DNA from: a virus | IMG/VR virus record: IMGVR_UViG_3300046514_000370 | Location: 1 to 31,929 of that record | Strand: one strand, 5' to 3' | Length of the DNA: 31,929 bases | Shown: positions 4,567 through 31,929 of the stretch, in pieces | Layout of the letters: each line of letters begins with the position of its first letter | Position numbering within the stretch: the stretch's first letter is position 1 | The notes under the pieces: model-generated | Databases searched by the model: none | The model's input: only the letters and a program-made list of their open reading frames with translations | What the model was told of the DNA's origin: nothing | Position numbers and translations under genes: made by a program

Positions 4567-5098
4567 GGACAGTTTCGGGCGTGAGATTGCCGAGATCATC
4601 AAGGAACACGTTGCACCCTATAGAGCGATCGTAATGCAGCAAGAACAGCGCATTGCTGCGCTGGAGGCGCGCAAGCCGGAAAAGGGCGACCCGGGCGAGA
4701 AGGGTGAAAAGGGTGATCCGGGTTCATCAATAATCGGGGTGCAAGGTCCACGCGGCAATCCGGGACCTGACGGTCGTGATGGCAAGGACGGCAAGGACGG
4801 TGCGCCGGGAAACAATGGCGAAAAGGGCGAGCCGGGTCCGCAAGGTCCGCCAGGAATGGACGGCGCCGGCCCATCACGTGGCCGTTATCGCGGACCATGG
4901 AAGCATGACGAGGAATATTGCCTCGATGACATGGTCTCGCGTGATAGCTCCGGCTGGGTGTGCACGGTTGAAGCTACAAAGCGCAAGCCGGGTGATTCGA
5001 AAGACTGGCAATTGTTCGTCAGGAAAGGCCGCGACGGTAAGGACGGCGAAAGGGGTCCGCCCGGCCCGCAAGGTCCAACCGGCAGGTACGAGCCATGA
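4556..5098 (+). CDS. Collagen-like virion protein with coiled coil and carbohydrate-binding-like module
   Basis: A 180-residue protein in four parts. Residues 1-40 look like an amphipathic coiled coil (EIAEIIKEHV...RIAALEARK) that could trimerise. About 44-105 are Gly-X-Y collagen-like triplets, with KGD, KGE, DGK and GPQGPPG repeats. About 108-156 form a compact aromatic segment with W-K-H-D-E-E-Y, GWVC and DWQLF, like the small carbohydrate-binding modules (CBM5/12-like) on phage fibres. The end returns to collagen triplets (GRDGKDG to the C terminus). The start ATG 4556 has AGGAG at 4543-4547, spacing 8, inside the portal gene. Collagen-like phage proteins are usually fibres or decorations; the place among head genes suggests a capsid or neck fibre. 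Exact location is inferred. Confidence 0.8.
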   Translation: MQLEDSFGREIAEIIKEHVAPYRAIVMQQEQRIAALEARKPEKGDPGEKGEKGDPGSSIIGVQGPRGNPGPDGRDGKDGKDGAPGNNGEKGEPGPQGPPGMDGAGPSRGRYRGPWKHDEEYCLDDMVSRDSSGWVCTVEATKRKPGDSKDWQLFVRKGRDGKDGERGPPGPQGPTGRYEP

Positions 5099-5772
5099 GA
5101 AAATCCCTTGTCACTGTCCTAGAACCAACCGCGCCGGTCTATGACCTGACCACGGTCGATGCGGTCAATATGTCGCTCGGGATAACCGGCAATACCGCCG
5201 ACGATGCTATTATGGCGGAAAACATTACCAGGGTGTCGCGCATGATCGGTGCATTGTGCGACCGGACTTTCGCTTTGCTTACGGTTTCCGAAAGCTTCCG
5301 CATGTCGTTTTACGATCCGGTACGTGGATTGAACTTGCGGCAGTTTCCGGTCACGCAATTCAACTCCATAACGGTCGGCGGTCAGCCGATCGATGCAGGC
5401 GGCTATGAATTGGACATGGATGCCGGTCTGCTCTGGCTGATATCGGGTTCGTGGTCATGGTCCTATTATTCGTCGGTCAACAGTCATTGGGCTGGCGAGG
5501 TGATTGTGCAATACAGCGGCGGTTATGATTTGCCCGACGGAGCCCCTGCGTTGTTATCGCAGGCGTGCATCGAGACGTTAAGGGCGCAACGGTTTGCCGC
5601 AAGGCGCGATCCAGCCATCCGCAGCACGACGCACAGCGATACGACGGTTACATTCGGTGACTATTTCAACCGTTTCCGCTTAACCGCAGCACAGGGCGGC
5701 GTTCCCGAGAGCCTGGTTCTGCCGCCCAATGCCAACGACATGATCCAGCAATACAAGAGGCTGATTGTTTGA
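5095..5772 (+). CDS. Head-tail connector (gp6/gp15-like adaptor)
   Basis: A 225-residue protein. The N-terminal half (LTTVDAVNMSLGI, then AENITRVSRMIGALCDRTFA) is the helical pattern of head-tail connector proteins that sit below the portal. The middle is a beta-rich insertion with LRQFPVTQFNSITVGG and YELDMDAGLLWL. VIVQYSGGYDLPDGAPALLSQACIETLRAQRFAARRDP is the standard second helical block of the family. The stop-start overlap ATGA with the collagen-like gene and the TTG overlap with the next gene show tight coupling. The family call is good; which connector number it corresponds to is not certain. Confidence 0.8.
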   Translation: MRKSLVTVLEPTAPVYDLTTVDAVNMSLGITGNTADDAIMAENITRVSRMIGALCDRTFALLTVSESFRMSFYDPVRGLNLRQFPVTQFNSITVGGQPIDAGGYELDMDAGLLWLISGSWSWSYYSSVNSHWAGEVIVQYSGGYDLPDGAPALLSQACIETLRAQRFAARRDPAIRSTTHSDTTVTFGDYFNRFRLTAAQGGVPESLVLPPNANDMIQQYKRLIV

Positions 5773-6389
5773 ACTGGCGGATCGAACCTGCCTGGAAAGG
5801 GGAAGTGGGCTATATCGTTGGTGGTGGGACTTCGTTGCTTGCGCAGAACCTTGAACTCATCCGCGACAAGAAGGTTATTGCCATCAACAGCTCATATCTT
5901 GCGGTGCCCTGGGCGCAATACGTCGTCTTTGCCGACATGCGCTGGTTCCTGCATCATCGCAAGGCACTGATGAATTTCACCGGCAAGGTGGTCAGCTGTT
6001 CAAGCGCTGCCAACGGGCCGCCGCCAGTGTTGAACGTGATCCGCAAGACTTCGTTAGGCCTCGCCACTGATACGCATACGCTGATGGTGAAGAACACCAC
6101 GTTAACTGCGGGCATCAATTTGGCGGTGCATCTGGGCGTGAGCAAGATCGTTTTGCTCGGCATCGACCAGAAGGCCGGGCCGGATGGGAAAATCCATCAC
6201 CACCCGCCGCATCCGTGGAAGGTGACGGCGAATTGCTGGAGCCGGCAGCAAACCGACTTGCCGAAGGTGGCCGAAGACCTGGCTCGGCTCAACATTGAAT
6301 GCGTCAACGCCTCGCCGGGGAGTGCTCTGACACTGTGGCCGATCGTGAACCTGGAGGACCATGCCGCCGCTGCCCAGGTCGCAGCCTGA
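5769..6389 (+). CDS. MptE/DUF115-like Rossmann-fold protein, first copy
   Basis: A 206-residue protein starting at TTG 5769, which overlaps the connector stop (TTGA). GYIVGGGTSL at residues 14-23 is the nucleotide-binding-like loop of the DUF115/MptE-like family. KKVIAINSSYL, YVVFADMRWF and GINLAVHLGVSKIVLLGID then follow in the expected order, and a His cluster (KIHHHPPHPW) comes late. The family includes the archaeal pterin diphosphokinase MptE and flagellin glycosylation proteins such as Maf; phage members have no proven reaction. It is the left bracket of a five-gene cassette whose other members are sugar-transfer and methyltransferase types, which favours a role in making or moving a modified sugar. 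A second, longer relative lies at 8443-9321. Confidence 0.7.
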   Translation: MNWRIEPAWKGEVGYIVGGGTSLLAQNLELIRDKKVIAINSSYLAVPWAQYVVFADMRWFLHHRKALMNFTGKVVSCSSAANGPPPVLNVIRKTSLGLATDTHTLMVKNTTLTAGINLAVHLGVSKIVLLGIDQKAGPDGKIHHHPPHPWKVTANCWSRQQTDLPKVAEDLARLNIECVNASPGSALTLWPIVNLEDHAAAAQVAA

Positions 6390-7320
6390 TCTGCACGTTC
6401 TGGGCATGCAGGGGCTGGGCGACAATATATTCCAGCGTCCGTTTATTCATGCGCTATCGCGAACCAACAATATCTGGCTGGAAACGTCGTGGCCGGAATT
6501 ATATGCCGATTTGCCGATCAAGTTTGTCAGGCCGATGGGCGGGTATTCGCACCTGCGCACGCAGAATAAGAACATCGCCAGGAGCCGCGTTGTCTGGCAA
6601 CCACGGCCGACACGGTTTCAGAGGGTGCGCAACAGCTATCAGCATGCCTTCCAGATGGGCCTTTGCATCATCGTCGGCATGGAACAGTCGTTCGGCATAA
6701 AACTCGATCCACAGTTGTTCTATTTGCCGCGATTGCCAGCAGTGCCGGTTAAGACTGACAAGCCTATTGCTTTCGTGCGTCCGGTTACACTCAGGAGCGA
6801 ATGGTTTAATTCGGCGCGCAACCCCGAGCCGCAATATCTACTCGATATTGTCGAAGCGTTGCGGCCGACGCACCACATCGTCTGCGTGGCCGATGTTGTG
6901 GGCCGGGAAGAATACTTCGTCGGCCAACCGCCCAAAGGCGATACGGAATTCATGCACGGTGAACTGCCGGCAATGGATATGCTGGCGCTGTTGGCGGCAT
7001 CGGACATCGTCATCGGCGGTGTAGGGTTCATTGTGCCGGCATCACTGGCGCTGAAGAAGGACTGTTTTGTCATACTCGGCGGCCAGGGCGGGCATAATGC
7101 TCCACACCGCGTGCTCGATCCGCGGCTGGACTGTTCGCGCATCGCGTTCGCAACCCCAGGGAATTTCTGTCAATGCACGAACATGCGGCACGAATGCAGC
7201 AAGACCATCCCGGACCTGATGCAACAATTCTGCCGTTTCCTCGACCAACGCTGCACGAGCACATTGCCGAGCGCAGCCTGCAATGGTTCCCAGAAATTGG
7301 AGTCGGCTATTTCCCAGTAA
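6361..7320 (+). CDS. Glycosyltransferase family 9-like (heptosyltransferase-like) protein
   Basis: A 319-residue GT-B-like protein. LGMQGLGDNIFQRPFIHAL near residues 14-32 is the N-terminal loop of ADP-heptose/GT9-type transferases. LLAASDIVIGGVGFIVPASL at about 208-227 matches the donor-binding region that in GT9 reads like 'A.ad..ig.dtG..HlAaAl'. ILGGQGGHNAPHRVLDPR and a Cys-rich end (CQCTNMRHECSKTI) follow, the latter common in phage or capsule-cluster relatives. The expected reaction is transfer of a sugar from a nucleotide donor; acceptor and donor are unknown. ATG 6361 overlaps the upstream gene by 29 bases. The last 148 bases overlap the next gene, and the final 30 or so residues look non-conserved. 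It acts within the five-gene cassette. Confidence 0.72.
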   Translation: MPPLPRSQPDLHVLGMQGLGDNIFQRPFIHALSRTNNIWLETSWPELYADLPIKFVRPMGGYSHLRTQNKNIARSRVVWQPRPTRFQRVRNSYQHAFQMGLCIIVGMEQSFGIKLDPQLFYLPRLPAVPVKTDKPIAFVRPVTLRSEWFNSARNPEPQYLLDIVEALRPTHHIVCVADVVGREEYFVGQPPKGDTEFMHGELPAMDMLALLAASDIVIGGVGFIVPASLALKKDCFVILGGQGGHNAPHRVLDPRLDCSRIAFATPGNFCQCTNMRHECSKTIPDLMQQFCRFLDQRCTSTLPSAACNGSQKLESAISQ

Positions 7321-7868
7321 CGGAGTCGCCTTACGACCAGGCCTATTTCGATCGCTTTGCCGAGCAGGCAGACAGCCCGATAGGCAGGGAGTTGATGGCG
7401 GGCCGGGTTGAATTTGTCGAGCAATACTATCGCGGCTGGATGGTCGATATCGGCATCGGTTCCGGTGCATTCATCGAAAGACGCAATGCAATTGCCCCGA
7501 CTTTCGGCTTTGACATAAATCCGGCCGGTGTGGCGTGGCTCAAAGAACGCGATCTGTGGTGCGATCCCTATGATGCGGCGGTGCCGGCCATATCGATGTG
7601 GGACGTGCTCGAACACATGCATGATTTCCGGCCGTTGCTGGCCAACGTGCAGCAGTGGCTGTTCCTGGCGGTGCCTATCTTCCGCGATGCCGAGCACGTC
7701 TTGCGCTCGAAGCACTACCGCAAGGACGAACACTGCTGGTATTTCACTCGGCATGGACTGGTCAGCATGCTGCGCGATTCGGGATTTGAATTGATTGCGG
7801 ACAGCGACATGGAAATATACGCGGGTCGCGAGGATATCGGTGCCTTTGCTTTCAGGAGAACGGAATGA
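7173..7868 (+). CDS. Class I SAM-dependent methyltransferase (Methyltransf_23-like)
   Basis: A 231-residue protein. MVDIGIGSGAF at about residues 90-100 is motif I (SAM loop) and FGFDINP the acidic strand-2 end. AISMWDVLEHM is the motif IV region typical of the UbiG/Methyltransf_23 type. EHCWYFTRHGLVSMLRDSGF is the late block seen in methyltransferases from glycan clusters. The first 45 residues (His/Pro-rich) lie in the overlap with the glycosyltransferase gene, so a shorter product is possible, but no better internal start is seen; ATG 7173 has AGGGAA about 9 bases upstream. The overlap with the next gene is ATGA. It is a likely sugar or small-molecule methyltransferase; the substrate is unknown. 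Confidence 0.75.
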   Translation: MHEHAARMQQDHPGPDATILPFPRPTLHEHIAERSLQWFPEIGVGYFPVTESPYDQAYFDRFAEQADSPIGRELMAGRVEFVEQYYRGWMVDIGIGSGAFIERRNAIAPTFGFDINPAGVAWLKERDLWCDPYDAAVPAISMWDVLEHMHDFRPLLANVQQWLFLAVPIFRDAEHVLRSKHYRKDEHCWYFTRHGLVSMLRDSGFELIADSDMEIYAGREDIGAFAFRRTE

Positions 7869-8446
7869 CTCTGCACGTCAACGACAGCACCGCGCCGGAA
7901 CGACTCAAGTATGAGGAAATATGGAGCTACCCAGAATACAGCAAATATTCACCTGGCCTGGATAATGTCGAGCGCTTCATCGAGGTGCTTGAGCCGGTTG
8001 CCATGGCTAGCCTCATCGACATCGGCTGCGGCGCCGGGGTGGCTGGGATGAAGTTCGCCAACCTTGGCTTTCGGGTTTCGTGGCTCGATCTGACTGACGC
8101 CGCGCTAGATCCACAGATTGACCGCACGCGGTTCATTCGGGCGGCGCTGTGGGACAATTGGGCCATCAACAACAAGTTCGGTTGGGATTACGGCTTCTGC
8201 TGCGACGTGATGGAACACCTGCCGCCCGAATACACCATGCTGGCGCTTGACCGCATCTTCAAGGCGTGCCGGACGACTTGGCTGCAGATCGCCTTGCATG
8301 ACGATGGCTACGGAAAATTCATCGGTAAGCCGCTGCATCTGACCGTGCAGAATTTCGTCTGGTGGCGTGATCGCATCGCTACCTTGGGCAATCTTATCGA
8401 GGCGCGTGACCTGTGCGGAACGGGCCTCTACGTGGTGCAACGATGA
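7865..8446 (+). CDS. Class I SAM-dependent methyltransferase, second copy
   Basis: A 193-residue protein with LIDIGCGAGVAGMKFANLGF at about residues 50-69 as a clear motif I, WLDLTDAAL as the acidic strand-2 end, and GFCCDVMEHLPPEYT as motif IV. KACRTTWLQIALHDDGYGK follows, resembling the end of the core domain. It lacks an obvious C-terminal extension, so it is close to a minimal methyltransferase fold. Its start overlaps the stop of the preceding methyltransferase (ATGA) and its stop overlaps the next start, so it is translated with the cassette. The two adjacent methyltransferases differ clearly in sequence, which suggests different positions or substrates rather than a recent duplication. 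Confidence 0.78.
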   Translation: MTLHVNDSTAPERLKYEEIWSYPEYSKYSPGLDNVERFIEVLEPVAMASLIDIGCGAGVAGMKFANLGFRVSWLDLTDAALDPQIDRTRFIRAALWDNWAINNKFGWDYGFCCDVMEHLPPEYTMLALDRIFKACRTTWLQIALHDDGYGKFIGKPLHLTVQNFVWWRDRIATLGNLIEARDLCGTGLYVVQR

Positions 8447-9321
8447 GGCACGACGCGGCGCAGACGCACGTCATCCCGTTTGATCCGAAGCGCGTCATGG
8501 AGATTGCGTTCTCGCCGGACTGCCGCGTCAACGTCACCGATGAGCAATTGCTCGAACAGGTTCGCCAGAACATTCAGCGTGGCTTGCCGCAGGCGATGCC
8601 GTATGACCCCAACCCCGACGTGGCTATTCTGGTAGCGGGCGGGCCGTCGCTCAAGAGCACGGAGAAAGAGCTGGTCGAAACGATCTGGCGCACCGGCGGC
8701 AAAGTGTTCACGGTCAACGGCGCCTATCAATGGTGTGTCGATCACAATATCCGCCCGCATGCCGCGGTGGTTATGGACGCACGCGAGTTCAATGCGCGGT
8801 TTGTCGAAACGCCGGTGCATGACTGCCATTATCTGCTGGCATCGCAATGTCATCCGAGGACATTCGAGATATGCCGCGACCGCATCGTCACTATTTGGCA
8901 CGCACTGAGCGCAGGCGACGACGAGATCAAGTTATTGGATTCCTACTATTTCAAGCGGCATAACCCGGTGACCATCGGCGTGACCGTGACGATGCGCGCC
9001 ATATCGCTGATGCGCATGCTCGGCTTCCAGCGGCTTGAAATATTCGGCCTCGACTCATGCTGGCTTGACGGCGATCACCACGCCTACGAGCAGGCAGAAA
9101 ACAACAATGAAAGAACCATGAGTGTGTGGTGTAGGCCAAAGGGACGAGACGACTTGGCGCAACGGTTTGTCTGTTCTGTTTGGCAGGCCAAGCAGGCCGA
9201 GGACTTCTTGCAGCTTGTTAAGGAACGTGGCGAGTTGTTTCAACTACACGTGCACGGTCCAGGACTTATCGCAACCATCATCCGCACTGGCGCGGAATTG
9301 GAAATAGAAGAGGAGAAATAA
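8443..9321 (+). CDS. MptE/DUF115-like protein, second copy
   Basis: A 292-residue protein. VAILVAGGPSLKSTEKEL at about residues 53-70 is the glycine-rich loop of DUF115/MptE-like proteins. GKVFTVNGAYQW, PHAAVVMDARE, then TVTMRAISLMRMLGFQRLEIFGLDSCWLDGDHHAY, carry the family pattern (G-L-D-S near the C-terminal strand, followed by an HHAY block). ATG 8443 overlaps the previous stop; an in-frame GTG at 8413 is less likely. This closes the cassette: the following gene starts 1 base after its stop, with a GAGGAG Shine-Dalgarno inside this gene's end. The reaction is unknown. Relatives act in pterin diphosphate transfer or protein glycosylation, so a role in handling a nucleotide-activated sugar is inferred. 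Confidence 0.72.
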   Translation: MRHDAAQTHVIPFDPKRVMEIAFSPDCRVNVTDEQLLEQVRQNIQRGLPQAMPYDPNPDVAILVAGGPSLKSTEKELVETIWRTGGKVFTVNGAYQWCVDHNIRPHAAVVMDAREFNARFVETPVHDCHYLLASQCHPRTFEICRDRIVTIWHALSAGDDEIKLLDSYYFKRHNPVTIGVTVTMRAISLMRMLGFQRLEIFGLDSCWLDGDHHAYEQAENNNERTMSVWCRPKGRDDLAQRFVCSVWQAKQAEDFLQLVKERGELFQLHVHGPGLIATIIRTGAELEIEEEK

Positions 9322-12495: not shown

Positions 12496-14754
12496 ATGCC
12501 AAAGACTCTTGGCCCGCATGCGGGAGGATCTGGTAGAGGCGTAGGGTTCTGGGCACAACAGCCCAATTTGATTCCGATCAATATTCCGGCAACCCCGGCG
12601 AGCGCTGCTCTTGCATTATCTAGTGATACGGCGGCGAAAGTAACGTTTGTCGCTGGTCAGTATGACGAGACCGGCGAGACTGCCAGCATTACTCTGGCGC
12701 CGGCCCCGTCATATACCGAAGTCGAATTCGGTGTTGTTCTCGATTACACAAGTCTGGCGCTTGGAGACCGCTTAGATTTTCAGGTTTATGCCAACGGCGT
12801 TGCGATATCCTATGACGTAACGCCGGAACTTATTGCCGCAGCATTACCGGCGGCCGCCAGCCTTGCGCTATCGTCGGCCGCACCTGCGTTGCTGCAGGGC
12901 GCGATCAAGACGCCGGCCGTTGCAGCTCTAGCTCTATCGGGCAATACGCCGAGCATAAGCCTGGCGTTCTCTATTGTTCCAACCGTTGCCGCGCTCGCAC
13001 TATCGTCGTCAGCGCCGAGCAGTGTTCAGGATAGCGCAAAGATTCCGGGTGTCGGATCGCTGACGCTGAGCGGCACGACCGCGACGCTGAAGCAGAGCAT
13101 TTCGTTAACACCATCCGCCGCCAGCCTGAATCTATCCGGCACAGTTTCGACGGCAACGGCCGGTGTCAGTTTCTCCCCGGCAGCCGGAGCGCTTGCTCTT
13201 ACTTCGGCGGCTTCGTCGCTCAAGTTTATTATTGGTCAGTATGACGAGACCGGCGAGACCGGTGCGATCAACATACCGGGCTTGTCTTATACCGAAATTG
13301 AATTCGGTATCGTTCTCGACAATGCCCATCTGGCGAATAATGACACTCTTGATTTCCGGGTGTATGCGGGCGGCAGTCCGCTTGCCGGTTATGATGTAAC
13401 CCCGCGAATTACTGCGGTCGTCGGCGGTGTTACCTTTGTCCCTGCCGCCGGTACGTTGACGTTAAGCGGTCAGACGCCAGTCGTCTCGGCTGGCATCAAC
13501 ATCAATGTAACGCCTGCGGTCGGTTCGCTAACGTTAAGCGGACAGACGCCGGTTGCGGCGGTCAATAACAACAAGATCCCGACGGTTGGGTCGCTTAGCT
13601 TAAGTGGGCAGATCCCGACCAGCGTTCAGAATACCGTCAAGGTTCCGACCGTTGCGTCATTGACGCTAAGCGGAACGGTTTCCGCAGTCGTCCAGAATAC
13701 TATTGCGACGCCTGCTGTTGGGTCACTGACCTTAACTGGTGTTGCACCGAGCCTCAGTCAAAGCCTCTTCAAGACGCCAGCAGTGGGAGCGCTGGCACTA
13801 TCCGGTAACATACCGGCTCTGACGTTCAGTTATATCTTCATTCCTGCCGTTGGGTCGCTGACGCTGACCCGCGAAATGCCGAACGTGCTGCTGAGCGGCG
13901 CGCTTTATCCGAACACCGCAAGCCTCACACTATCGGCCCTTGCGCCTTCGCTAAAGACGACATTCCAGGTTGCGCCTGCTGCGGGTGTGCTGGCGCTAAC
14001 TGGTGCGGTTCCTTCAGTCGTTCAAAATATGCCGCTGGTCGCGGCTGTCGGTTCGCTGACGCTGAGCGGGACAATATCCAACCTCGCGGGCGGCTATTAT
14101 CTAGTCCCGTCGGTTGCCAGCCTGACACTATCGGCAGCCGCTCCGAGCGTCGGCGGCGTCGTAACAAAGCAACCGACCGCGGGCGCATTAACGCTGACCG
14201 GCAATGCGCCGGTTGCAAAGATCGATATACGGCTATCGCCGGCGGCAGCGGCGCTATCCTTAAGCGGGCAAACACCAAGCCGCGATGTCGGCGTCGCCTT
14301 CATGCCGGCAAGTGCGACGCTGGCGCTATCCGGCGGCACGCCAATTCTGCTGCGCAACTTCCGCAATATCCCGGCGGCCGGGTCGCTGACGCTATCGGGG
14401 CAGATACCAAACGTTCAGCTCGGCGGACAATTGCGGCCGGCAACGGCGTTGCTCTCGCTCACTGGAAATACGCCGCAACGCAGTATCGGAACTAAGCTCA
14501 CCGTCCCGGTCGGATCGCTTGCTCTCAGCACAGTCGCCCCGCTTGTCGTAAAAACGACCGACGGCTATGTGCTGCCGATCACGATCTGCCATCTCAACGC
14601 GGAAATGACGGAAGGCGGATTGAATATGCTTCTCGCTACCAACGAACTTAATACGCTGATGAGCGCTGGTGAACTAAATACGATCATGGCCGCCGATGCC
14701 CTCAACGTCGAGATCGATAGCGCCATGCTGGATGCGGAAATGGGGTGCCACTGA
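12496..14754 (+). CDS. Large repeat protein: 22-residue repeats, two inserted modules, nonapeptide tail
   Basis: A 752-residue protein. The body is made of about 24 copies of a 22-residue unit with consensus P-x-V-G-S-L-T-L-S-G-x-x-P; the first Pro recurs at residues 118, 140, 162, 184, 206, 228, and then from 340 every 22 residues to 670. Two related modules of about 60 residues, each with GQYDETGET and a YTE-EFG block, sit at 51-110 and 244-303. The C-terminal 53 residues are nine-residue L-N repeats. The strict period suggests a beta-solenoid or strand-stacked rod. Charge is very low and there are almost no Cys. It lies between decoration-type genes and neck genes and probably forms an extended virion appendage. 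ATG 12496 has only a weak ribosome binding site. Function unknown. Confidence 0.75.
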   Translation: MPKTLGPHAGGSGRGVGFWAQQPNLIPINIPATPASAALALSSDTAAKVTFVAGQYDETGETASITLAPAPSYTEVEFGVVLDYTSLALGDRLDFQVYANGVAISYDVTPELIAAALPAAASLALSSAAPALLQGAIKTPAVAALALSGNTPSISLAFSIVPTVAALALSSSAPSSVQDSAKIPGVGSLTLSGTTATLKQSISLTPSAASLNLSGTVSTATAGVSFSPAAGALALTSAASSLKFIIGQYDETGETGAINIPGLSYTEIEFGIVLDNAHLANNDTLDFRVYAGGSPLAGYDVTPRITAVVGGVTFVPAAGTLTLSGQTPVVSAGININVTPAVGSLTLSGQTPVAAVNNNKIPTVGSLSLSGQIPTSVQNTVKVPTVASLTLSGTVSAVVQNTIATPAVGSLTLTGVAPSLSQSLFKTPAVGALALSGNIPALTFSYIFIPAVGSLTLTREMPNVLLSGALYPNTASLTLSALAPSLKTTFQVAPAAGVLALTGAVPSVVQNMPLVAAVGSLTLSGTISNLAGGYYLVPSVASLTLSAAAPSVGGVVTKQPTAGALTLTGNAPVAKIDIRLSPAAAALSLSGQTPSRDVGVAFMPASATLALSGGTPILLRNFRNIPAAGSLTLSGQIPNVQLGGQLRPATALLSLTGNTPQRSIGTKLTVPVGSLALSTVAPLVVKTTDGYVLPITICHLNAEMTEGGLNMLLATNELNTLMSAGELNTIMAADALNVEIDSAMLDAEMGCH
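12646..13404 (+). repeat. Two copies of an internal protein module (12646-12825 and 13225-13404)
   Basis: The two stretches encode about 60 residues each, starting F-V/I-A/I-G-Q-Y-D-E-T-G-E-T and ending Y-D-V-T-P. The DNA from 12655 to 12680 and 13234 to 13259 is identical. The 22-residue repeats lie between them. A duplication inside the gene is the simple reading. Confidence 0.75.
12847..14568 (+). repeat. Tandem 66-bp (22-codon) coding repeats
   Basis: Protein-level repeat units of exactly 22 residues run from codon 118 to codon 691, interrupted once by the second copy of the 60-residue module. Units keep Pro1 and the block G-S-L-T-L-S-G at 4-10, with Pro at 13; positions 14-22 vary freely. 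DNA copies have diverged at third positions, so the array is old and under protein-level selection. Confidence 0.85.
14593..14751 (+). repeat. Nonapeptide L-N repeats at the C terminus of the repeat protein
   Basis: Six units with a strict 9-residue period: LNAEMTEGG, LNMLLATNE, LNTLMSAGE, LNTIMAADA, LNVEIDSAM, then LDAEMGCH. Leu1 is invariant, Asn2 nearly so, and Met/Ile/Leu sits at position 5. The unit differs entirely from the 22-residue repeats before it, so this is a separate module. Confidence 0.8.
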
Positions 14755-27777: not shown

Positions 27778-28956
27778 CTATTTCTCTTGCGTCCGACTCG
27801 CGACGCGCAACTTAGCAACGCGGCTTGTCTGCTCGGTGCCGGCGCGACGATAGCGGCGCGAGGTTGCGACTTGCGTGTGAGTTGCTAGCGCCATCGCGCC
27901 TTCGGTCGTGGATCCTGCCTCATAGGCTTCAGTCACGGCACCGGCGCGAGCATCCATGTTCCAAATCTCATCCGGTATGCCGGCCTCGCGCGCGATCAAT
28001 CGGAACCAGCGGCGATATTTTTCCGGCGTGTACGGGAGTTGAGTCCCTTCATCAATGACAAGAGGGCCGACGCGACTTTCGAGCGGCGTTGCCGCCAGGT
28101 CAGCGGCAAGCTCGGGGTAGTCGGCAATACGGTGCTCGGCATCGGCACCGGTTTTGCTTGTCGTCTTTCGTAATATGCCGTCCCTGCCGATATGCGACCA
28201 TGTAAGGCCATTGGACCATCTTCCGTTGTTCCAATCTCCCAAAACGTCACGTTGGCGGAAAGCAAGTTCGAACTGCAAGAGAACTCCACGCGCCATCGAG
28301 TGCCGTCCTCGTTTGATAGATACAAGACGGAATCGCGCGACTTGCTCATAGGTCAATCTCGTTTTCCTGGCTGGCGGCTGTTTGAAGCGCGTGGCTGATA
28401 GCTGCTCGCGCAGCGGGATGCATGGATTCGGTTTCATCAGATTGGGACCGCGCGACGCGCCCCAAGACACAATGGCTTTGAATATGCCGATAATTGTGTA
28501 GGCATACGACAGCTTTGGCTTGCCCTCCGGCTGATCTGGCGCCGCAATTTTTTTGTACCAGCGCCGCACGTCGTCGCCCATGACCATGGCGAGCTGACGA
28601 TCGCCGACACGTTGGCACAGGATGCGCATGTGCTTGCTGTAGTTTTTTTGTGTTGTCGGGCGAAGGTCGTGGTATGGCGAGTCGGGGTCAACCTCATAGC
28701 AATTCACGAGACTGCGCACGGTCCCATCGAACGGCCGGCGCTGCCTGCTCGTGTTGGTTGACCATTCGAGCATTTCCGCTTGCAGCACGCGGCAACGGTG
28801 CTCGATCAACTCCATGTTGCCGTCGTAATGCAGCGGCACACATTTCGGCGTATAGCCTCGCTTTATGAGGTCCGATCTGCTGATCCAATAGGCACGACGT
28901 TCCCCGTTGGCGCGGTTTCTCCACTGAAGTCCTGGGGCGCTGACTTTGTCGGCCAT
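27778..28956 (-). CDS. Tyrosine recombinase (phage integrase)
   Basis: A 392-residue integrase of the kind that inserts phage DNA at an attachment site. The N-terminal part (QWRNRANGERRAYWISRSDL) is an arm-type domain. HMRILCQRVGDRQLAMV near 109 is the core-binding start. Catalytic positions read as Arg234 (FELAFRQRDVL), Lys268 (TTSKTG), Arg337 in NMDARAGAVTEA, His360 (THTQVATSRRY) and Tyr369. The usual first His of the HxxR box is Met334. ATG 28956 has GGAG about 9 bases upstream; it overlaps the excisionase-like gene by 94 bases, so the two are coupled. Presence of an integrase makes the phage temperate. Confidence 0.85.
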   Translation of the reverse strand: MADKVSAPGLQWRNRANGERRAYWISRSDLIKRGYTPKCVPLHYDGNMELIEHRCRVLQAEMLEWSTNTSRQRRPFDGTVRSLVNCYEVDPDSPYHDLRPTTQKNYSKHMRILCQRVGDRQLAMVMGDDVRRWYKKIAAPDQPEGKPKLSYAYTIIGIFKAIVSWGASRGPNLMKPNPCIPLREQLSATRFKQPPARKTRLTYEQVARFRLVSIKRGRHSMARGVLLQFELAFRQRDVLGDWNNGRWSNGLTWSHIGRDGILRKTTSKTGADAEHRIADYPELAADLAATPLESRVGPLVIDEGTQLPYTPEKYRRWFRLIAREAGIPDEIWNMDARAGAVTEAYEAGSTTEGAMALATHTQVATSRRYRRAGTEQTSRVAKLRVASRTQEK

Positions 28957-29186
28957 GTTTCAGCTCCATCGGGCGTTGCCGGCTGAACGGTGCCAAGTCC
29001 GTGACGCCGGTAGAGAAACGCTAGTACCGCCGGCAAAAACCGTCTACCCGTCACAGGGTCGATTTGCGGGAGGCCGTGGCGTTCCTGCACCGCGGCAAAC
29101 GCCCGCCATTCAGCCAGCCGGCCAGGGCCGAACACCCTGTCGGCAATCTGTCCCTCGGTGGCGTAGAGCGGCGTTTTACTTTCCAT
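28863..29186 (-). CDS. Putative excisionase/winged-helix DNA-binding protein
   Basis: A 107-residue protein. Residues 1-66 form a compact helical unit: ATEGQIADRVFGPGRLAEWR, then HGLPQIDPVTGRRFLPAVLA and FLYRRHGL. The block L-P-x-I-D-P-x-T-G-R-R-F-x-P-A-V is familiar from small proteins lying directly upstream of integrases in Hyphomicrobiales, probably recombination directionality factors of the winged-helix type. The last 40 residues lie in the 94-base overlap with the integrase gene and look disordered. Position supports a role in excision or in regulating integrase. Confidence 0.62.
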   Translation of the reverse strand: MESKTPLYATEGQIADRVFGPGRLAEWRAFAAVQERHGLPQIDPVTGRRFLPAVLAFLYRRHGLGTVQPATPDGAETWPTKSAPQDFSGETAPTGNVVPIGSADRTS

Positions 29187-29646
29187 TCATTTTCTCAGCC
29201 AGGATTCGCAGGCCATATTCACGCAATGCTTCGTGCGGCAAATCCTCCAGGGGCGGCCAGCAGCATCCATCCTCGGTGATCTTCAATGGTTCATCGCTGC
29301 GCAACGGTGCTTGTAATTTGACGGCCGGAAGCGCGGGCAGGCTTTTAGCCTCGGCACGAATCGGATGCAGCACTGGATCGATCTTGATGTTGCGAGGTGG
29401 GCCGCGCCGGTCGCTCCAGCAATGATCCTTGGAGTACCAGTAGATGTGTTGTTTCGGCCAAAGATGGCGGGCCTCTTTCTTGCTCAGGCAGACCTCGCTG
29501 GCCGCTGCCGACTGCGTCATAACCAAAATCATGATGGACAGCACAATGATGATCAGGCCGAGCGCGATGATGAGCAGATAGAGTTGGCGGATGAGCTGAT
29601 TGTGCCGCATGATTTTTTCCGCCTGGCGGTCGATTGACAGCATCAC
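29176..29646 (-). CDS. Membrane-anchored Cys/Trp-rich protein, function unknown
   Basis: A 156-residue protein. A long hydrophobic helix spans about residues 22-44 (LYLLIIALGLIIIVLSIMIL), an N-terminal anchor or signal. Beyond it EVCLSKKEARHLWPKQHIYW and the following YSKDHCWSDRRG give two Cys and several Trp/Tyr/His that could form a disulfide or metal-bound small domain in the periplasm. A third pair of Cys lies in DGCCWPP near the end. GTG 29646 overlaps the previous stop; ATG 29643 next to it is the alternative. It could be an exclusion or envelope protein, but nothing proves that. Confidence 0.58.
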   Translation of the reverse strand: MMLSIDRQAEKIMRHNQLIRQLYLLIIALGLIIIVLSIMILVMTQSAAASEVCLSKKEARHLWPKQHIYWYSKDHCWSDRRGPPRNIKIDPVLHPIRAEAKSLPALPAVKLQAPLRSDEPLKITEDGCCWPPLEDLPHEALREYGLRILAEKMNGK

Positions 29647-30239
29647 ACTGCCATCCCTTGCTGTTCGTCTAAGTGATCAAGCCAATATTTCAATCGTGGC
29701 CAATTGGTATCGGGACCGAATCTCAGGAATGTTCCGTCAGCACTATCGCAACCAATACCAACAGCAGCACGGAGGCGATCCAAAGAATTAACGCGACCCA
29801 TATGTGCCAGCTTGCCTCGTGCCTTCGCTGCAGCCACCGCATTCCGGCCGCCTCGAAACTTGAAAGCAGTAGTGCCGCCGACAAAAAGAGTGTCCAACTC
29901 ATCCCAGGGTGTAGTGTCATTTTGCCATCCGTCCTGCGCAACAAATGCTGATTTCAGTCCCATGGCGCGGATCTGGCGCAGCATGGGGGTAGATCGCTTG
30001 ACCGTCTCCTCGTGATTTCCGAGCACGTCTGGCGCGGTGGCGAACATGGTTCGATCGCGCGGCATTCGCTCGAGATATTTTAGATAGCGGACATCCGAAT
30101 AGCCGTTAGGATTGGTGAAGCAACCATTGTCAGCCGCTATTTTCACGGCATCCGGCAGCCGGTTTCCCATGTCCGGCGTCATGATAAAGCCAAGTCTCGG
30201 ATGCTTCTGCGCATAAATTGTGCCGCTGAGATAAATCAT
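29643..30239 (-). CDS. Short queuine tRNA-ribosyltransferase-like protein (DpdA-type, candidate DNA transglycosylase)
   Basis: A 198-residue protein that reads like the short TGT/DpdA relatives of phages. Those in the DpdA group exchange guanine in DNA for a 7-deazaguanine and so shield phage DNA from restriction. AADNGCF (Asp37) stands where TGT has its DSGGF acid/base block. ATAPDVLGNH (Asp71) and FVAQDG (Asp103) follow, then LFVGGTTAFKF, HMGRVNS and GCDSADGT (Asp165/Asp168), where the nucleophile Asp is expected. The order fits a TIM-barrel enzyme much shorter than bacterial TGT (about 370 residues), as in actinobacteriophage members. ATG 30239 overlaps the previous stop (ATGA). No preQ0 synthesis genes are in the window, so the base would come from the host or genes outside. 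Confidence 0.68.
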   Translation of the reverse strand: MIYLSGTIYAQKHPRLGFIMTPDMGNRLPDAVKIAADNGCFTNPNGYSDVRYLKYLERMPRDRTMFATAPDVLGNHEETVKRSTPMLRQIRAMGLKSAFVAQDGWQNDTTPWDELDTLFVGGTTAFKFRGGRNAVAAAKARGKLAHMGRVNSLDRLRAAVGIGCDSADGTFLRFGPDTNWPRLKYWLDHLDEQQGMAV

Positions 30240-30772
30240 GCATGTCCCGGCGCTTTGTTGTTTGCGACCAAGGCGCTCATTTGCTTGTGCGTCGGTGGCG
30301 CTAGAATTTTTGGCGCTTCGGCATCTTCGGCCACCGTCTGACGAATGACCGGCGTCAGCGGAATTTCAAAGGCGCGCAATTGGGCCAGCACCGAAGTGAA
30401 CAGGCCCTGCAGTTTGCCGTGCCGCACCACTGCCTCATCGCGTTCCAATTGATAGCCCGTGCAGCGGCTCTTGAGATCGACGATCTCGTTTTGCAGGCCG
30501 ATAATGCAGCGGCTCTTGAGATCGACGATCTCGTTTTGCAGGCCGATAATAGTGTGCTTGGCCTGCGTGCAAAGCTCCATGGCGCGGTCATAGTCGGCCC
30601 GCACATTGTCACGATCTTCCTTGACGGCGGCAAACTCGGCAATGCCGGCCTCGATGGCGGCCTGTGCTTGTGATGAGCGCGGACGGGCCACCGCTGCGAT
30701 CTTGGGAATGTCGGGCATATCATCCCTCCGTATTGCGTTTTTCAGGGATTGCATTCGGCTGGTGACTGACAT
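30236..30772 (-). CDS. Coiled-coil protein with a perfect internal duplication
   Basis: A 178-residue protein. Residues 50-120 form a coiled coil (VKEDRDNVRADYDRAMELC and on), inside which the 15-residue unit IIGLQNEIVDLKSRC occurs twice back to back. The C terminus is proline-rich with PLTPVIRQTVAEDAEAPK. Two starts compete: ATG 30772 with AAGGA 8 bases upstream, and ATG 30718 with a stronger GGAGGG at 30729-30724 and 5-base spacing, which removes the first 18 residues. I kept the longer one because it leaves only 12 bases after the recT gene. Its end overlaps the DpdA-like gene. Function unknown; the place beside RecT suggests a recombination or replication accessory. Confidence 0.6.
   Translation of the reverse strand: MSVTSRMQSLKNAIRRDDMPDIPKIAAVARPRSSQAQAAIEAGIAEFAAVKEDRDNVRADYDRAMELCTQAKHTIIGLQNEIVDLKSRCIIGLQNEIVDLKSRCTGYQLERDEAVVRHGKLQGLFTSVLAQLRAFEIPLTPVIRQTVAEDAEAPKILAPPTHKQMSALVANNKAPGHA
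30461..30550. repeat. Perfect 45-bp tandem duplication
   Basis: Bases 30461-30505 and 30506-30550 are identical. The unit is 45 bp, so it keeps the reading frame and adds 15 residues (two heptads plus one) to the coiled coil. Identity at every base, including silent positions, shows it is recent. Confidence 0.97.
30724..30729 (-). promoter_or_regulatory. Strong Shine-Dalgarno for an alternative start of the coiled-coil protein
   Basis: On the minus strand GGAGGG stands 5 bases before ATG 30718, in frame with the longer start at 30772. It is among the strongest ribosome binding sequences in the window, so the shorter 160-residue product may be the main one. Confidence 0.5.
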
Positions 30773-30784
30773 TGTGCATTTCCT

Positions 30785-31591
30785 TTATGCTTTTTGATTT
30801 TCCAGTTCGTCACTGATCTCGACACCGGGCTGGGCTTTTTCCTCGTCACCGCCGAAGGCATCGAGCGCGTCGACCATGTTGGTGATCGGCTTGATGTCGG
30901 AGGTTGGATTATTTGGTTTGTTGAATTCATACAGATCATCGTCGGCCCGGATCAGGTCATCGAGATCGGATGACATCGGCAGGCGCTTGGCTAAATTTCT
31001 CAGTACTGTTTTTTGCCAAGCTTCCTCGGTCCATTCGGTCCACAGCGGCGAATTTTTTGCGCGCGAGACATTGCGGCGTTTATTGATTTCACTCTCCGAC
31101 ATGACTTCAACCATGATGCCGCCGTCTTTGGTGTTGGCAATTGCATAAGCCTTCACTGGCTTGCCGGTACCATCACCCGGTACATGATTGAGATGCGGTC
31201 CATGCTCGTCTTTGTAATAATGGAACACGTCATTATCTCGCACGATGTCGACATCGATCGATTTGAATTGTCCGCTATTTCTAAATCTTTTGAGCAAACC
31301 ACCGACCATTGGCAGCCATTGCGCCTTGTCCTTGAATGGGACGATGGCACCGTCGCGACCATCCGGGAGCAAGCCATCGGAGGCCGCTCGAAGACAGGCG
31401 TTCCATAGCGATTGCCGATCACATGCCAGCAGATCAGTATTGAGCTGCACGGCTGTCATCACCACGCGGATAAAGCGTTCCGGCGGAATGTGGACCGGCA
31501 GGGCGTTTTTTAGTTCACCGGCGCGGGAGTCGAAGTGTTCGCGCAGGGTAATTAGTGGATGTTTTTGTTTATCGGTCTTGGTGGTGGTCAT
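30785..31591 (-). CDS. recT: RecT-family single-strand annealing protein
   Basis: A 268-residue RecT-type recombinase that pairs complementary single strands in phage recombination. PERFIRVVMTAVQLNTDLL at about residues 34-52 is the usual opening, then LWNACLRAASDGLLPDGRDG, VPFKDKAQWLPMVGGLLKRF (a hallmark block), the KAYAIANTKDGGIMVEVMS segment, and WTEWTEEAWQKTVLRNLAKR-type end. An acidic tail follows (DALDAFGGDEEKAQ). The start ATG 31591 has AGGA close upstream; the frame runs open to 31753 but that part overlaps the neighbouring gene and does not resemble RecT. No matching RecE-type exonuclease is seen; it may lie beyond the right edge. Confidence 0.9.
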   Translation of the reverse strand: MTTTKTDKQKHPLITLREHFDSRAGELKNALPVHIPPERFIRVVMTAVQLNTDLLACDRQSLWNACLRAASDGLLPDGRDGAIVPFKDKAQWLPMVGGLLKRFRNSGQFKSIDVDIVRDNDVFHYYKDEHGPHLNHVPGDGTGKPVKAYAIANTKDGGIMVEVMSESEINKRRNVSRAKNSPLWTEWTEEAWQKTVLRNLAKRLPMSSDLDDLIRADDDLYEFNKPNNPTSDIKPITNMVDALDAFGGDEEKAQPGVEISDELENQKA

Positions 31592-31605
31592 ATTTCCTGC
31601 TCCAT

Positions 31606-31929
31606 TCAGCGGTTGTCCTGCGGGATTGGTGGCTGCGTGGCTGGCTGGCCGCCATTGCCTTGAGTGTAAGTCGAGTTGTAGTAGCCGCGCGGCAGCGGTG
31701 CCGGCTCGCTGACGGTGTTCTCGCCGATGAACTGGCAGCCCTGTTCCCAGCATGAGAACTGCATGAAGCTGGCCGCGTTGGCCTTGTTGTGGATCTTGAC
31801 GAAGCCCGATCCTTGAGCGTCGACAACGATGGTCACGTTTCTCACCGGCACTTTCTGCGCATTGAGCAGCAGCATGTTTGTAGTGCCAGTCTTGCGGCCT
31901 TCGATCAGCACCGCATGGTCGGTCAATGG
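31606..31929 (-). CDS. Small protein with pilus/secretin N-terminal-like motif (5' end cut by window)
   Basis: The frame is open to the window edge (the codon before the TTG at 31926 is CCA), so the start lies outside; 107 residues are visible. HAVLIEGRKTGTTNMLLLN at the visible start fits the 'l.i.Gk..GtTnl...d' motif of the pilus-formation N-terminal domain that precedes secretins such as CpaC. After VTIVVDAQGSGFVKIHNKAN comes a two-Cys block (FMQFSCWEQGCQF) and a Pro/Gln-rich tail. No secretin domain follows, so this is a stand-alone domain. It lies 14 bases upstream of recT on the same strand. Function unknown. Confidence 0.55.
   Translation of the reverse strand, partial: PLTDHAVLIEGRKTGTTNMLLLNAQKVPVRNVTIVVDAQGSGFVKIHNKANAASFMQFSCWEQGCQFIGENTVSEPAPLPRGYYNSTYTQGNGGQPATQPPIPQDNR

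Follow-up and report, generated by a model that had tools for sequence, protein, structure and literature searches.

The window analyzed here, the whole stretch of 31,929 nucleotides, comes from a 31.9-kb IMG/VR virus record that may be a fragment, and it most likely represents a phage carrying a miniature DpdA-type transglycosylase in solo form, which needs a base from the host. We estimate at roughly 0.7 the probability that the gene product is a miniature enzyme of the tRNA-guanine transglycosylase (TGT)/DpdA type that likely marks phage DNA with a 7-deazaguanine, the base being supplied by the host or otherwise. The analysis establishes the predicted fold, the conserved residues, the accessory insertion of the gene, and the co-location of its family with genes for base supply.

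The operon that contains the short gene runs in the order RecT, a 178-aa probable coiled-coil protein, the short gene, a 156-aa protein, further genes, and an integrase-like protein:

30785..31753, minus strand: RecT, a single-strand annealing protein that precedes the short gene in this operon (Pfam PF03837, 4.8e-38)
30236..30772, minus strand: upstream neighbor, a 178-aa probable coiled-coil protein and one flank of the insertion site (84-85% identity in the sister loci L002, L251, and L253)
29643..30239, minus strand: short DpdA-type transglycosylase gene, an intact ATG-started open reading frame of 198 aa in the PHROG 15826 family (open reading frame check, PHROG, AlphaFold, Foldseek)
29176..29646, minus strand: downstream neighbor, a 156-aa protein with an N-terminal hydrophobic stretch and the other flank of the insertion site (open reading frame; in L251 and L253, located immediately after the coiled-coil gene)
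27778-28956: integrase-like protein at the far end of the operon (weak Phage_integrase match in Pfam)

Overlaps of 4 bp join the short gene to both neighbors (30236-30239 and 29643-29646). The gene is intact and under purifying selection, with a dN/dS of 0.14 against the sister loci L002 and L012. Within the coiled-coil neighbor, a 15-codon tandem duplication (IIGLQNEIVDLKSRC twice, window 30455-30560) is present as a single copy in L002. Elsewhere in the window, several genes among the structural genes at 5769-9321 resemble glycosyltransferases or methyltransferases by sequence only (for example, 6361-7320, 7173-7868, 7865-8446, and 8413-9321), and a 752-aa protein at 12496-14754 consists mostly of PAVGSLTLSGxxP-type repeats. 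As for the host, no near-identical phage record was found, and portal protein matches were only about 29% identical in 385 genomes of one class.

In a profile search, the short protein matched PHROG 15826 ("unknown function") at 3.3e-52 over residues 12-193. The Pfam, NCBIfam, and PADLOC scans returned no significant model, so the gene would have been overlooked in a search restricted to TGT HMMs. In particular, bacterial TGT (PF01702) gave no Pfam match, PHROG 887 (phage DpdA) gave no row at E values up to 1, and a sequence-profile search of PDB sequences found nothing. Because PHROG 887 does not match it, the short gene represents a distant subfamily and not DpdA in the strict sense. A beta-glucanase identity was also considered; its weak matches (E 0.02-0.3) were judged to be chance similarity around a TPWDExD motif.

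At least 573 relatives of the short gene were found in one IMG/VR scan, and bacterial genomes contributed 66 loci. The set used for genomic context comprised 387 short-gene loci, reduced to 268 non-redundant clusters. Direct relatives of the window gene, 43-48% identical by tblastn, occur in cluster P mycobacteriophages (GreaseLightnin gp55), Arthrobacter phages Sonali and Aoka, and Rhodococcus phage ReqiPine5 (gp03). GenBank already labels most or several of them "DpdA-like tRNA-guanine transglycosylase". More distant relatives occur in Synechococcus, Vibrio, Erythrobacter, and Escherichia phages. A frameshift or sequencing error divides the short gene of Escherichia phage phiG7 (L010:7881-8473), and that of SHIN8, between two overlapping frames, and a full-length DpdA is intact nearby. 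The phage searches gave no homolog in phage CAjan, and its published dpdA deletion therefore does not bear on the short family. The family has a median pI of 6.8 and a median charge near zero, whereas the window protein has a pI of 9.3; since the median family protein is not basic, DNA binding is not obvious from charge.

An AlphaFold2 model of the short protein, built with 72 relatives, reached a pLDDT of 95.7 and predicts a compact fold in which strands and helices alternate. The top PDB match in Foldseek was the DNA preQ0 insertase DpdA (7UI4, 1.6e-5), with other TIM barrels behind it and TGTs dominating the list; TM-scores of the model to TGT/DpdA were only about 0.5. VIA-align gave TGT a Z of 14.4 over 193 residues and gave ribulose-phosphate epimerase the same Z, so the fold alone is not decisive. 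In hhalign, the phage DpdA profile scored 2.3e-5 with 72 rows and 2.4e-4 with 255 rows, the TGT profile scored 0.043 and 6.7e-4, respectively, and unrelated control families ranged from 0.0035 to 0.63. Collectively, the predicted TIM barrel is closest to DpdA/TGT, a resemblance that is weak as a sole criterion, and the profile comparison prefers phage DpdA to TGT and to unrelated families.

The short protein has the barrel fold and the catalytic motif order in common with bacterial TGT. In contrast, it is about half as long, it has no Pfam match, and the zinc- and tRNA-binding C-terminal part of TGT is absent; the 72 aligned relatives contain no conserved Cys-x-Cys-x2-Cys (CxCxxC...H) zinc site. 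With the phage DpdA proteins of PHROG 887 (9g, CAjan, and Rosebush) and the bacterial DpdA 7UI4, it shares the TIM barrel as well as an ordered series of motifs (DNGCF/DSGAF, PDV/LDG, GG, H, and SxD), and both groups occur with QueC, QueD, QueE, or FolE. However, members of the short family are about 200 aa long, compared with 300 aa or more for DpdA, they do not match PHROG 887, and they often lie beside one supply gene or a transporter instead of a full preQ0 pathway.

The proposed active-site residues are encoded as follows:

30129..30131, minus strand: Asp37 codon (ADNGCF), kept in 72 of 72 relatives and paired by hhalign with DpdA DSGAF
30027..30029, minus strand: Asp71 codon (APDVLG), counterpart of DpdA LDGIGD, 72 of 72 (hhalign)
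29934..29936, minus strand: Gln102 codon (VAQDG), 72 of 72, placed by motif order as the probable equivalent of TGT FGIVQGG
29874..29879, minus strand: Gly121-Gly122 codons (FVGGTT), counterpart of IGG in DpdA and TGT (hhalign)
29802..29804, minus strand: His146 codon (HMGRVNS), counterpart of H in DpdA HGFGIT, 72 of 72 (hhalign)
29736..29738, minus strand: Asp168 codon (SADGT), proposed nucleophile, 72 of 72, paired with the Asp of DpdA SCDSS (hhalign, 255 rows)

D37, P70, D71, Q102, F119, G122, H146, G148, N151, D168, and G169 are invariant in the 72 aligned relatives, and G121 is kept in 69 of them. Asp37 is the counterpart of the first conserved Asp in DpdA (LDSGAF) and TGT (TDSGGF). The nucleophile of Z. 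mobilis TGT is Asp280 (PMC3660597), and Asp168 would be its natural counterpart. Asp165 was dropped as a candidate nucleophile, being Asp in 50 of the 72 relatives, whereas Asp168 is invariant. The conserved aspartates and the putative base-binding Gln and Gly residues stand in the barrel order of TGT/DpdA.

These results bear directly on an earlier note on this DNA, which had read the gene as a shortened TIM-barrel transglycosylase of the TGT/DpdA type. The motifs on which it drew (ADNGCF, TAPDVLG, VGGTTAFK, HMGRVNS, and GCDSADGT) are all present and in TGT order, and the motif-bearing gene is real, far beyond chance. The predicted fold is indeed a TIM barrel, with DpdA 7UI4 as the best-ranked solved structure, and the active-site aspartates whose lack would have spoken against the idea are invariant. 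The name DpdA holds in part: the best structural match and hhalign point to DpdA, whereas PHROG 887 is unmatched. Similarly, the suggested HMM search against DpdA and TGT families yielded neither PHROG 887 nor Pfam TGT, and the link to DpdA came from hhalign.

Across the family, the short gene recurs beside genes for 7-deazaguanine supply. QueC, QueD, QueE, or FolE occurs in 48 of the 268 clusters, a fraction biased upward because one scan was seeded with Que-linked members; it was about 1/7 in the first, window-centered set of 80 loci. These enzymes were counted as beside the short gene in 43 clusters and lie within 150 bp of it in 40, compared with 12 clusters on average and 19 at most when the short gene was placed at random within the same loci. 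All 115 matches agree in strand with the short gene. Usually a single enzyme is present (QueC in 14 clusters, QueD in 11, QueE in 5, and FolE in 1), and QueC, QueD, and QueE occur together in a minority. In the operons of L073, L074, L031, L264, and L089, these three precede the short gene (Pfam and NCBIfam checks), and PHROG 887 DpdA is absent from the whole records of L073, L074, and L089. Full-length DpdA was found in only four of the 268 clusters (Sonali, R29Z, phiG7, and L296). Thus, elsewhere the short protein is the sole enzyme of its kind detected, and where both occur, their roles may differ.

The commonest neighbor, which was unexpected, is a Vut_1/QPTR membrane protein (PF02592) adjoining the short gene in 91 of 268 clusters; all 140 matches agree with it in strand, and the median gap between the two is 44 bp. 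A QPTR-family member of E. coli imports preQ0 and preQ1 (PMC11130926). Across whole records, Vut_1 exceeded the Pfam cut-off in 21 of 42 records of the short-gene group (among them L251 and L253, both without the short gene) versus 0 of 42 records with full-length DpdA. It lies directly or almost directly upstream in cluster P mycobacteriophages, Aoka, and ReqiPine5. In cultured actinobacteriophages, Vut_1 and the short enzyme are located at L005:5424-6585 (GreaseLightnin gp54-gp55), L006:5438-6588, and L007:5107-6591, and in Aoka a QueF-family gene lies between the two. The actinobacterial genomes L092 and L094 (Micromonospora) and L093 (Planomonospora) carry the short gene and Vut_1 without TGT or a convincing QueC; an imported base would therefore be the only evident source there.

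A third neighbor is a protein of 80-92 aa, found in 19 of 268 clusters on the strand of the short gene. It is modeled as a T-fold, its eleven best PDB matches are archaeosine synthase QueF-Like structures (TM about 0.85), and a Cys-Pro, a Glu, and a His are invariant. This family (L002:6124-6378 and 19 further loci; closest structures 5JYX and 5K0P) is without a Pfam match. Based on the model, it is probably a new QueF-like family that accompanies the short enzyme. No recognized supply gene lies nearby in 124 of 268 clusters.

On the tree, supported branches force at least 14 gain or loss changes for the transporter and at least 11 for the synthesis genes, so the association is recurrent. By simple counting, transporter and synthesis genes share one cluster against 14.6 expected (Fisher 1e-7); however, over independent pairs on the tree the exclusion is not significant (median p 0.6), which leaves mutual exclusion of the two as only a suggestion. 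Rfam gave no match in the window or in eight related loci, and hence no preQ1 riboswitch there. Moreover, DNA methyltransferase-like genes are frequent in the 3-kb flanks of the 268 loci (three neighbor groups in 19, 14, and 9 clusters), one group being confirmed by Pfam only via a single relative, L016:8644-9741. We consider it an even bet that the short family provides the catalytic core for minimal phage cassettes that mark DNA with only one to three genes, the insertase being combined with a single supply gene; the partner would be a QPTR importer scavenging external base, an enzyme that boosts the pathway of the host, or a tailoring enzyme of the QueF-like kind.

Comparison within the clade of the window reveals how the gene sits in its operon. 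The closest sister, L002 (short protein 78% identical, RecT 95%), carries a cassette at 4917-6378 in which the short gene, QueE, and an 84-aa QueF-like gene follow in overlapping order. Its QueE scores 268 bits in TIGR04508 against a curated cut-off of 240, and the cassette is located inside the homolog of the 156-aa gene of the window. Among other near relatives, L018 has a QueF-like gene, L016 has QueE and a QueD-family match, L013 has a Vut_1-like gene below the Pfam cut-off, and in L014 no supply gene was found. L251 and L253 have RecT and the genes for the coiled-coil and 156-aa proteins in common with the window, and the short gene is absent, the 156-aa gene following directly after the coiled-coil gene. 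Given this empty site and the different site in L002, the short gene is a mobile accessory at a variable spot and not part of the recombination machinery. The coupling to a recombination operon that the earlier note had described is thus real in the window, where RecT lies upstream and both overlaps exist, but it does not extend to sisters in which the same operon has an empty site.

The search for que genes that had been proposed found no QueC, QueD, or QueE in the 31.9-kb window record, and no PHROG 887 DpdA, Vut_1, or QueF-like gene was detectable in it either. The supply-gene neighborhood is therefore a feature of the family and of L002, whereas the window record, which may be incomplete, has none; a supply gene could be missing because the record may be a fragment. 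The description of the gene as acting alone fits the record, whereas in the closest sister QueE and a QueF-like gene follow immediately.

Based on these observations, the enzyme would be a transglycosylase reduced to the catalytic barrel of the TGT/DpdA superfamily, and it would most likely replace guanines of the phage DNA with a 7-deazaguanine, either preQ0 or a base derived from it. By analogy with TGT and DpdA, Asp168 would attack the sugar to give a covalent intermediate, guanine would leave, and preQ0 or a derivative would enter, while Asp37, Asp71, Gln102, and Gly121-122 would keep the base in place and activate it. DNA is the probable substrate in view of the homology to DpdA and the precedent of CAjan, in which DpdA-dependent preQ0 in DNA blocks restriction enzymes (PMC6884629). 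The modified guanines would presumably shield the phage genome from restriction. The supply of base may vary by phage and often depend on one adjacent gene, namely a Vut_1/QPTR importer, QueC/QueD/QueE/FolE, or the QueF-like protein. As the record holds no supply gene, the window phage probably uses a base made or imported by its host, or else a gene outside the record.

The substrate could also be different. An enzyme acting on free nucleotides would exchange the base in dGTP or in one of its precursors, leaving incorporation of the modified nucleotide to the polymerase. The missing tRNA-binding part of TGT, the near-zero median charge of the family, and the position of the short gene just before a DNA polymerase gene in Vibrio phage R29Z and Escherichia phage phiG7 are consistent with this. 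However, DpdA, the nearest structure in terms of E-value, acts on DNA, and no TGT-superfamily enzyme is known to act on free nucleotides; we regard this route as unlikely. Action on host tRNA, by which a phage TGT would raise or alter queuosine during infection, is improbable: although the catalytic motifs are TGT-like and QPTR and Que neighbors also serve tRNA queuosine synthesis (PMC11130926), the protein has neither the C-terminal zinc/tRNA-binding region nor a Pfam TGT match, and Vut_1 cassettes occur in the L092, L093, and L094 genomes without TGT or a convincing QueC. An equally small chance is left for the window gene being a leftover of a cassette that lost QueE and the QueF-like gene, so that the enzyme no longer matters; L002 does carry both where the window has none, but the dN/dS of 0.14, the full-length frame, the retained invariant residues, the 4-bp overlaps on both sides, and the many relatives that are likewise alone argue against decay. 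Finally, convergence of an unrelated TIM-barrel enzyme is very improbable, since the motifs follow the DpdA order, profile comparison favors DpdA over controls, and the recurrent neighbors belong to 7-deazaguanine metabolism, despite the tie of ribulose-phosphate epimerases with TGT in VIA-align Z and the failure of TGT sequence models to match.

The preferred reading, a miniature DpdA-type enzyme in solo form, has a close precedent. Lone ("singleton") DpdA was described as a third group of 76 phages by Hutinet et al. 2019 (PMC6884629), so a one-gene system as such, which the earlier note had envisaged, was already on record. Like the window phage, these phages have a DpdA-like gene without phage base-synthesis genes, and a host-made or imported base was suggested for them (PMC6884629). 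Of two singleton phages tested, mycobacteriophage Orion was unmodified and 7-11 contained dADG in trace amounts only, and YhhQ transporters showed no correlation with any phage group (PMC6884629). In the short family, unlike those phage groups, the transporter is a regular neighbor. The window gene also differs in context from its direct relatives: GreaseLightnin, Aoka, and ReqiPine5 have Vut_1 just upstream, and Sonali has a full-length DpdA with the preQ0 pathway, whereas the window has neither arrangement. The name is not new, as some mycobacteriophage members are annotated as DpdA-like. Searches of the open-access literature yielded no report of a regular pairing with a single supply gene, the importer in particular, and the cassette logic appears to be new.

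Phages with a lone DpdA-like gene have been puzzling, since the published test of one of them detected no modification and the base had no evident source. The neighborhood pattern offers an answer, in which the phage brings an importer or one enzyme of the pathway. Mycobacteria are without the 7-deazaguanine pathway (PMC6884629), and cultured cluster P mycobacteriophages carry the importer-enzyme pair (in GreaseLightnin, Vut_1 as gp54 and the short DpdA as gp55), so that the prediction is testable by feeding preQ0. Collectively, the reading would provide a 22-kDa base-exchange enzyme and a function for PHROG 15826, and, if true, the importer form would let phages mark their DNA in hosts unable to make the base.
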